A DNA stretch of 41,149 nt, from the NCBI GenBank assembly GCA_027036935.1, contig JALWCE010000154.1, positions 1-41,149 of the forward strand, in the 5' to 3' direction. The DNA comes from Nitratiruptor sp. (GTDB lineage: Bacteria; Campylobacterota; Campylobacteria; Campylobacterales; Nitratiruptoraceae). The position numbers and the translations under genes were made by a program. A model generated the notes under the pieces. That model did no database searches and was not told where the DNA came from. It saw nothing but the letters and a program-made list of their open reading frames with translations. Positions 20,921 to 24,834 of the stretch are shown piece by piece. The first letter of the stretch is position 1. Each line of letters opens with the position of its first letter.

Positions 20921-20959
20921 AACCTTTCCTTTAAATTTTTTCTAAAGTCAGGAATATCA

Positions 20960-21077
20960 GGGCATCGACTCTTGGCATAGGGGAAGTAAGACCCGACCAT
21001 TGTTTGTTTAGAGCAATGGTCGGGCATCCCTGCTTAAAGCCAAAATCCCCCATATTTATGCGTGGGGAGTATGTGAG
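20960..21077 (+). mobile_element. IS200/IS605-like right end / omega-RNA-like element, copy 1 (degenerate)
   Basis: This non-coding block shares with 24332-24428 the opening GGGCATCGACTCTTGGCATA, then AGGGGAAG, AGACCCG, GCATCCC, CTTAAAGCC, AATCCCCC, TTTATGCGTGGG and AGTATGT in the same order. It carries its own 11-pair hairpin (CCCGACCATTG 20992-21002, CAATGGTCGGG 21014-21024) where copy 2 has only a short palindrome. The 3' hairpin is weakened (CATAT against ATGCG) and the final tetranucleotide is TGAG where copy 2 has TCAA, so it looks decayed as a transposon end. It fills the gap between the tkt stop and the porin start. On the minus strand its hairpin followed by TCTTACTT could terminate tkt. 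Confidence 0.55.
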
Positions 21078-23025: not shown

Positions 23026-23899
23026 TACTCTCCTTTGTGAAATGTTGATGTCGATAAAGGTAATTTTGTAGCGCCTCTTGCAAACTTTTTTGTATCCTCG
23101 GTTCAAAAAATGCAAGCTCTTCTTCTAAATTTTTGGCTAATTCTTGCGCTTTTGCATAAGCTCCATCCAAACCCAAAAGATTGACAAAAGAGTTTTTATA
23201 CTCATCTTTTTGCGTACTTTTGCCCGCCTCTTCTTGCGTGCATACCGCATCGATGATGTCATCTTGAATCTGAAAAAGCAGGCCAAGGCCCAAACCAAAA
23301 TCATAAAGTCTTTGGAGTATCATCTCCTCCAACCCTACAATCACTCCGCCCATCTGCAAAGAAGCAGCAATGAGCTTTGCTGTCTTGTTGCGATGCAAAA
23401 TAGTAAGCTGTTTGAGCGTAAGAGGATGGTTCTCAAAATGACAATCAAGGATCTGGCCATGCACCATTCCCTCTACTCCACCATTTTTGGCCAAAATAGT
23501 TGTAAGTCCATTTTTTATATCAGAGCTCAAAGGAGCACTACCAATAAGATAAAAAGCATGCGTATTAAGAGCATCGCCCACCAAGACGGCGGTTACTTCA
23601 TCATAACGGGTATGAAGTGTAGGCTTGCCCCTGCGAAGAGCTGCATCATCCATTACTGGAAGATCGTCGTGAATGAGGGAGTAAGTGTGAAATATCTCCA
23701 CTGCCAAAGCTATGGGCATAGAAGAGGGGAGAAGCAACGGATCGACAGCGTGGACTATGCTCAGCAGCAAAAGGGGACGAAAACGTTTTCCACCTGCTTG
23801 CAGCATTGCGTTTAAAGCTTCTTGATAGTGAGGATGAAAGCTATCGATTTGGATAGGGTGGGTGCGTAAATACTCCTCAAAGTGTTCGAGCAGATCCAT
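22991..23899 (-). CDS. ispA: Polyprenyl synthetase (farnesyl/geranylgeranyl diphosphate synthase type)
   Basis: Head-to-tail condensation of isopentenyl diphosphate onto allylic diphosphates. The first aspartate-rich motif is DDLPVMDD at residues 78-85 (the DDxxxxD spacing of bacterial short-chain enzymes) and the second DDIID at 213-217; GGKRFRP and HTYSLIHDD are also family features. At about 302 residues it fits IspA; the exact product length cannot be fixed here. The ATG at 23899 overlaps the ybaB stop as TGATG, and the 3' end runs 35 bases into tkt. The C-terminus is charged and variable. Confidence 0.9.
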   Translation of the reverse strand: MDLLEHFEEYLRTHPIQIDSFHPHYQEALNAMLQAGGKRFRPLLLLSIVHAVDPLLLPSSMPIALAVEIFHTYSLIHDDLPVMDDAALRRGKPTLHTRYDEVTAVLVGDALNTHAFYLIGSAPLSSDIKNGLTTILAKNGGVEGMVHGQILDCHFENHPLTLKQLTILHRNKTAKLIAASLQMGGVIVGLEEMILQRLYDFGLGLGLLFQIQDDIIDAVCTQEEAGKSTQKDEYKNSFVNLLGLDGAYAKAQELAKNLEEELAFFEPRIQKSLQEALQNYLYRHQHFTKESNAREEDAQKDG

Positions 23900-24204
23900 C
23901 ACTCTTTTCCAAACATAGACGGATCAAAAAGATTCATCGCATTTTTTTGTCGATTTTCCTCCACCATTTTTAGTACGTCGTTGAGTGCACTCATAAGTAA
24001 AATCTGCAAGGATTCCTTATCCTCTAGCAAGGAATCGTCTATTTTGATATCGATAATCTCCCCCTTGCCGTTAGCGCTTACTTGCACCATACCTCCACCA
24101 CTTTTGGCGGTTAAAATTTGTCGCTCCTGCTCCTCTTGGAGTTTTTTTGCCTTTTCTTGCATTTGCTCAAAAAGCTTACCAATATCGCCCAACTTATCAA
24201 ACAT
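23899..24204 (-). CDS. YbaB/EbfC family nucleoid-associated protein
   Basis: Small DNA-binding protein of about 101 residues that forms tweezer-like dimers. The sequence has the family plan: an N-terminal amphipathic helix ([19 protein letters not shown]), two strands ([24 protein letters not shown]) and a C-terminal helix ([22 protein letters not shown]). GAGG lies about six bases before the ATG at 24204; the longer frame upstream contains non-homologous sequence from the intergenic region. It is the first gene of a run with ispA and tkt. The usual neighbours dnaX and recR are absent. Confidence 0.9.
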
Positions 24205-24270
24205 TTCCATCCTCAATTTACAAAATATCGCCGTAAAACCCCTTGATGTATCAATGGGGATATAAGGCGA

Positions 24271-24312
24271 CAAAAGAGTTGAGAGGGGATTTGTCCCCTC
24301 TCAACTCTTTTG
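24271..24312. terminator. Perfect 19-pair hairpin, probable terminator
   Basis: The left arm 24271-24289 (C plus AAAAGAGTTGAGAGGGGA) and right arm 24294-24312 are exact complements around a TTTG loop. Both flanks of the GC-rich core are A4/T4, so each strand ends in a T run and the hairpin can act in either direction. It sits downstream of panD and upstream of ybaB, both minus strand, where a terminator for the panD transcript is expected. A role as left-end hairpin of the IS605-like element that follows at 24332 is an alternative. Confidence 0.6.
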
Positions 24313-24331
24313 CTATAAAAATAGAGAGCCG

Positions 24332-24428
24332 GGGCATCGACTCTTGGCATAGGGGAAGAGACCCGCAATTGCAAGCATCCCCACTTAAAGCCGCAATCCC
24401 CCGCATTTATGCGTGGGAAGTATGTCAA
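24332..24428 (+). mobile_element. IS200/IS605-like right end / omega-RNA-like element, copy 2 (intact end)
   Basis: A 97-base plus-strand block that opens GGGCATCGACTCTTGGCATA and ends in an imperfect palindrome (CCC-C-CGCAT, TT loop, ATGCG-T-GGG at 24398-24417), then AAGTATGTCAA. A subterminal hairpin with an unpaired T followed by TCAA is the layout of IS608/IS605-type right ends. In TnpB systems this end is also the guide-RNA scaffold, with the guide read from the flanking DNA; here that flank starts AATATAGTACACTC at 24429. No TnpA, TnpB or IscB gene lies in the window, so this is a solo end, a MITE-like remnant or a stand-alone guide RNA. Homology is judged by memory of the family pattern only. 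Confidence 0.58.
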
Positions 24429-24468
24429 AATATAGTACACTCATACCCTACGAAATAGCTCCCAAGAG

Positions 24469-24834
24469 CTACATCGAGTGAAGAATCTCTTGGATATCGT
24501 TTTTTTCATCTACCAAAACGATAGTGGGCTCATACGATTGAAGCTCTAAAGGATCGTATTGGGCGTAAGCTACGATAATGATCTTGTCTCCAGGATGGAC
24601 TTTTCTCGCTGCCGCCCCGTTAAGGCAGATTTCTCGTTTGCCTTTCTCGCCTTTAATCACATAGGTTTGAAAACGCTCGCCGTTATTGATATTAAGAATA
24701 TCGACTTTTTGACCAACAACAAGTTTTGCTGCTTCCATAAGCTCTTCATCGATGGTAATGGAACCAACATAATTAAGATTGGCATCCGTTACCGTAGCTC
24801 GATGAATTTTGCTATAGAGCATTTCGATTTGCAT
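24469..24834 (-). CDS. panD: Aspartate 1-decarboxylase (pyruvoyl-dependent)
   Basis: Makes beta-alanine for pantothenate. The proenzyme self-cleaves between Gly24 and Ser25, visible in NYVGSITID, generating the pyruvoyl group. [50 protein letters not shown] and IIIVAYAQY are standard PanD segments. The 121 residues are normal. The start directly follows the ferredoxin gene stop without a gap, so it ends the nifU-to-panD run, ahead of a strong hairpin at 24271. Confidence 0.96.

Follow-up and report, generated by a model that had tools for sequence, protein, structure and literature searches.

Between panD and ybaB in a 41,149-nt stretch of Nitratiruptor sp. DNA (the window) lies a non-coding block, 24332–24428, that closes with a hairpin and TCAA. 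A preliminary description made from the sequence took it for a stand-alone IS605-type right end acting as a solo guide RNA, or for a MITE-like element. This raises the question of what the block belongs to, and whether an RNA read from it could serve a protein encoded elsewhere.

Boundaries and setting of the element

The imperfect hairpin (CCCCCGCATTTATGCG-T-GGG), the terminus AAGTATGTCAA and the TCAA were all found where they had first been placed. Comparison with other copies showed that the block is the right half of an element at 24222–24428. The right boundary of the original span was correct, but the span was too narrow: a left end is present from 24222, so that the block is not a stand-alone right end, and the left-end hairpin, the internal 19-bp palindrome and a promoter remnant had been missed. 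The features are as follows.

23899–24273, minus strand: neighbour gene ybaB, as the longest ORF (PF02575)
24217–24221, plus strand: TTTAC left flank, the host target (TTAC = C_L) and expected TAM of the empty site
24222–24428, plus strand: complete protein-less element, 207 bp, with ends taken from comparison with other copies and empty sites
24235–24238, plus strand: left guide tetranucleotide (G_L), AAAA in this copy; most of the family, like IS608, has AAAG
24239–24259, plus strand: left-end subterminal hairpin (IP_L), CCCCTTGAT...ATCAATGGGG; other copies have the alternative CCCCGAGCTTTAGCTC..GG
24271–24312, plus strand: internal perfect palindrome with 19-bp arms, terminator-like on both strands, read from the sequence
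24311–24319, plus strand: remnant of an extended -10 box, TGCTATAAA; consensus of the copies TG[C/G]TATAAT, a Campylobacterota promoter form
24324–24428, plus strand: omega-RNA-type scaffold (right end), from a covariance-model match of 105 bits
24394–24397, plus strand: right guide tetranucleotide (G_R), CAAT in this copy; the parents and IS608 have GAAT
24398–24419, plus strand: right-end subterminal hairpin (IP_R) with one unpaired T, from sequence and alignment
24425–24428, plus strand: TCAA right cleavage site (C_R), closing element and scaffold, from sequence, copies and the IS608 rule
24429–24446, plus strand: would-be guide from the flank, AATATAGTACACTCATAC, from the sequence
24469–24834, minus strand: neighbour gene panD (Pfam PF02261)

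The left part of the element thus runs from the IP_L hairpin, held within short outer arms, through the palindrome to the scaffold. Subterminal hairpins are present at both ends and TCAA at the right end; terminal inverted repeats are absent. The palindrome is perfect in the window copy and imperfect (..CCCCTTGAAACTC..) in nearly all others, and looks as if one of its arms had been rewritten from its partner.

The family, its parents and its insertion sites

The 221 bases surrounding the block recur in the same genome (G000, searched as a 1.69 Mb assembly of 156 contigs), mostly at 82–90% identity and with E values down to 1.7e-66. The aligned copies represent one element, usually of ~190–220 bp, and the genome holds about 11 such mini-transposons, the window copy included, in addition to two parent elements. 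A covariance model trained without the window copy recovered it over 24324–24428 (E = 2.5e-21). Within G000 this model gave 15 matches, namely the two parent ISs, two in the window and the rest MITEs together with one weak match, and the window copy ranked 10th of the 15 by score. Since the element recurs in the genome and was found by an independent model, the block is not a chance occurrence. These copies with shared ends support its MITE-like character.

Genes for TnpA and TnpB, suspected to lie elsewhere in the genome in elements with a matching right end, were found in the two parents, C59 and C17, to which the window block is 90% and 87% identical, respectively. The C59 parent (C59:1687-3097) has both ends, a decayed tnpB and an intact TnpA of 151 residues (from ATG) that matches the ISHp608 transposase (E = 2.4e-73) and keeps the HIH motif and the Tyr of KQYIENQ; it is an autonomous relative with the same ends as the MITEs. 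The C17 parent (C17:4031-5427) also has both ends and carries an open TnpB, 381 aa from ATG, which matches ISDra2 TnpB (E = 1.1e-55) and keeps the RuvC D/E/D and zinc Cys residues (motifs GIDFG, VVIEDLN and HDRDVNAA). Intact TnpA and intact TnpB therefore reside in separate parents in this assembly of 156 contigs. A TnpB-like protein on a third contig, C68, was ruled out as a partner: it is a different protein, without a matching right end. This second, unrelated protein (L026, G000:C68:6988-7323, minus strand) has the RuvC-II motif VLGDFSG in place of VIEDLN and, by its sequence, may have a rearranged active site. The contig with the intact TnpB also holds a fragment of a different Y1 transposase, an 89-residue open frame (L029 1501-1680, G000:C17:8159-8338).

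IS608 inserts 3' of TTAC, ends in TCAA and uses the guide tetranucleotides AAAG and GAAT (PMC5934647). The family carries all four of these signals, with TTAC or a close variant adjoining the other copies, AAAG in the majority, and GAAT in many MITEs as well as in the parents; the CAAT of the window copy is found in about half of the G000 MITEs. These copies and parents bear out the initial assignment of the block to an IS605/IS608-type right end with an intact TCAA. The resemblance to IS608 (ISHp608) of Helicobacter pylori extends to the TnpA family, the target, the right terminus and, in many copies, the guide tetranucleotides; unlike IS608, the present element is a gene-less 207-bp derivative, with AAAA and CAAT in the window copy.

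To locate empty sites, the flanks of individual copies were joined in silico and searched in the sister genomes G008 and G009. Empty sites were found there for the window copy and for copies C130a, C52 and C143, as illustrated by the C130 copy, where GAATTGTTAC is followed directly by AATAGT. As these sites are contiguous at TTAC and free of target duplication, insertion was precise and 3' of TTAC. The empty site of the window copy is contiguous, but shows divergence in its flank (ATCTAC in G008 and a small indel); with the site empty in both sister genomes, the insertion is absent there, as expected for one made in its own lineage. The insertion polymorphism seen for the family is between species only. 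Taken from the sequences, the ends, the copies, the precise insertion after TTAC, the conserved scaffold structure and the presence of parents with intact TnpA and TnpB make it highly probable that 24222–24428 belongs to the IS608 group of IS200/IS605 elements as a non-autonomous member (MITE/PATE), mobilised in trans.

Core-deleted IS605 elements are already known. They include the PATEs of Haloquadratum walsbyi (PMC3119063) and a PATE-like element of Halanaerobium hydrogeniformans in which the 3' tail of tnpB and the right end survive (PMC7290912). Like the elements described there, the Nitratiruptor family has transposase-free IS605-type ends, a core deletion and subterminal palindromes, and lacks terminal repeats. 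Unlike them, as far as those PATE descriptions go, it has a -10 box directly before the scaffold, a feature that we did not find described in a limited literature search; nor did we find a discussion of guide RNA in the PATE descriptions of the two papers.

Among 60 relatives, the element was found only in members of the same genus, and of 22 genomes of the family the covariance model detected it in 5, which belong to one genus and include G014 and G004. No intact cognate TnpB was found in G014 or G004, despite the scaffolds there. G014 holds six diverged solo scaffold-like elements (L173, L176, L177, L181, L184 and L187) and only a short tnpB remnant. In named records the scaffold core pattern was found only in Nitratiruptor/Epsilonproteobacteria MAGs (WGAT, WGAX); the exact window right end had no match in named genomes, and the scaffold core had none in viral contigs. 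G008 carries ~28 nearly identical MITE copies (L093-L120), many at contig ends, a set that by its sequence uniformity is a recent burst. The window itself has a second scaffold copy at 20952–21077 on the plus strand (84.7 bits), without a left end and with stem 1 broken; ending in TGTGAG rather than TGTCAA, it is, judged by sequence, an older relic. G000 further contains two solitary palindromes of ~42 bp, perfect or near-perfect (TTGACATAC..CGCATTTATGCG..GTATGTCAA), one in L021 near 717-759 (G000:C23:15216-15258) and one in L022 near 698-746 (G000:C77:4997-5045), which resemble the right-end hairpin mirrored both ways and have no scaffold alongside.

The right-end scaffold and the -10 box

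The structure of the scaffold was assessed in an alignment of 25 right ends, comprising the window copy, 18 other MITE copies and 6 parents. Six helix segments were supported, with 95.0% of cells paired versus 90.2% in shuffles and 33-50% in slid controls, a covariation score of 0.252 versus 0.161 and 0.03-0.09, respectively, and two-sided changes in 11 pairs. RNAalifold agreed with most of this structure. The single-sequence fold of the block was unremarkable against shuffles (z = -0.49), and the structural evidence therefore rests on comparison. No Rfam family matched at the gathering threshold, and at E values up to 10 nothing relevant appeared, the sub-threshold matches falling mostly on the internal palindrome.

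In both parents the scaffold lies at the right end and tnpB 3' end, the C-terminal end of tnpB overlapping it (RVGASTLGIGEVRPAIAGISA in C59), and is followed by a flank-derived guide. The omega-RNAs of AmaTnpB and ISDra2 are arranged in the same way, with a right-end scaffold overlapping the tnpB 3' end and a 3' hairpin adjoining the guide, and the ~105-nt Nitratiruptor scaffold is similar in size and stem number to that of AmaTnpB, which has 106 nt and four stem-loops (PMC10278001). The overlap with tnpB and the helices conserved across the 25 copies uphold the earlier likening of the block to omega-RNA; judged by this comparison of sequences, the right end, ~105 nt long, is a genuine omega-RNA-type scaffold. 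Unlike AmaTnpB and ISDra2 omega-RNA, it sits in a tnpB-less element, where its 5' end would be set by a promoter and not by processing of a tnpB mRNA.

In G000 and the parents, stem 1 reads GAGTC/GACTC; the G008 MITEs and one G015 MITE have AGGTT/AACCT instead. In the tnpB frame AAGGTTGGGGCATCAACCTTTGGC reads KVGASTFG, where the parents have RVGASTLG, though the G008 and G015 copies seen all lie behind a -10 box and none behind tnpB. The compensatory changes in stem 1 and helix 5 are synonymous or conservative when read as tnpB codons, and may thus predate the loss of tnpB. Because of this reading in the tnpB frame, we set aside stem-1 compensation as proof of selection in the MITEs.

Most copies have an extended -10 box (TGNTATAAT) directly before the scaffold. 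The parents, where the region is preserved (C59 and, in G015, L045 and L048), have GCTATAAT or a TTATAAT box just before the first start codon; in the MITEs the box is TG[C/G/A]TATAAT and lies ~7-11 nt before stem 1. Exact TATAAT was found in 5 of the 11 MITEs of G000, in the two of G015 and in almost every one of the ~28 G008 copies; other G000 copies have TAAAAT or TATAAA. Campylobacter promoters have an extended TGxTATAAT box and a periodic A/T-rich signal that replaces the -35 box (PMC3656092; PMC3887049). The G008 copies hardly differ from one another, so that their agreement is chiefly a sign of recent amplification; the better argument for a promoter is that the box agrees across G000, G008 and G015 while the spacer differs. 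On this pattern the MITE family resembles promoter and guide-RNA minigenes with transposon ends, and we infer that the MITEs may be transcribed from the -10 box.

Possible use of the RNA in trans

We propose that a parent IS lost its protein genes through a core deletion but retained the left end, a leader with the -10 box and the complete right end, the last of which would double as a TnpB guide-RNA scaffold. TnpA made elsewhere would recognise both hairpins on single-stranded DNA, excise the element and insert it 3' of TTAC. From the promoter kept in intact copies, a short RNA would probably be made that consists of the scaffold and ~16-20 nt of right flank. TnpB made elsewhere could take up this RNA and cleave the TTAC-plus-flank site left empty by excision, and repair would restore the MITE. 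The window element itself is probably movable and readable only via the parent proteins encoded elsewhere.

It is an even call whether the scaffold in the MITEs is instead a passive leftover, with TnpA needing the terminal hairpins and the RNA under no selection. Among the stem-1 changes in G000 are wobbles as well as disrupted pairs, and indels occur in several copies, as in neutral decay; the conserved features could reflect ancestry, and solo relics are present in genomes in which no intact cognate TnpB was found. Against this, the whole ~105-nt scaffold and the -10 box have been kept in three genomes, and the box is conserved although the spacer behind it varies. IS608 TnpA should need only the terminal ~40 nt, and retention of the full scaffold and -10 box therefore counts against a passive leftover. 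If the RNA is unused, the family would be an ordinary set of MITEs and an illustration of how the right ends of IS605 elements linger.

We entertain more tentatively that the family is a set of promoter-driven stand-alone guide-RNA genes, each with a guide taken from its own flank, sharing a trans-acting, gene-drive-like mode of retention; with the same reserve, one TnpB encoded elsewhere might use all of the MITE guides to cut empty sites. Stand-alone omega-RNA loci with IscB/TnpB systems were reportedly described by Altae-Tran in 2021 and Meers in 2023, and the likeness is that of a guide RNA without an adjacent nuclease gene. If the RNA is used, the family would be a natural multi-guide TnpB system built from transposons with nothing but a promoter, a guide scaffold and their ends, and this would explain how protein-less IS605 elements escape loss upon excision. 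The close-species set, with its occupied and empty sites and intact TnpA and TnpB, makes guide use directly testable.

That the window copy works as a solo guide RNA, with its own promoter driving transcription and the C17 TnpB using the product in trans against the empty site, is unlikely. It does have a complete scaffold with the TCAA end, the -10-like TGCTATAAA in front of it, and a cognate intact TnpB in the genome. However, its -10 box is mutated to TATAAA, it has a private 2-nt deletion in GAAGTAAGACC that is absent from all 24 other aligned copies, stem 1 has a C-A mismatch and some scaffold pairs are broken. A generic sigma-70 scan also gave no promoter match at this copy, though the scan demands a -35 box, mostly lacking in Campylobacterota. 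Since promoter, scaffold and guide tetranucleotides are all altered, the guide-RNA step is doubtful here. These changes hit functional places, and we therefore regard the window copy as decaying and, by its sequence, as an insertion between panD and ybaB that is most likely passive for the greater part. Its guide had no TTAC-flanked match within 3 mismatches in 16 genus genomes, its own flank aside, and the guide 17-mer had 4 matches in viral contigs, about the number estimated by chance for such a collection; the search for a protospacer in related genomes and phages, suggested at the outset, thus gave no target.

It is improbable that the insertion has been co-opted to terminate transcription, or to act as a leader element, in the space separating panD from ybaB. 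The palindrome, with its perfect 19-bp arms, does resemble a terminator on either strand and lies just upstream of the ybaB ribosome-binding site, but the palindrome is a family-wide feature and sister genomes G008 and G009 lack the insertion. Use of the block as a guide by a nuclease-dead TnpB repressor of the TldR type, which the preliminary description had also allowed for, can be dismissed as highly improbable: all that speaks for it is that TldR guides broadly resemble omega-RNAs, and against it stand the lack of a guide target within 3 mismatches in the genus genomes searched, the D, E and D catalytic residues all retained in the only cognate intact TnpB (C17), and the many similar copies with unrelated flanks, which would be unexpected for a regulator.
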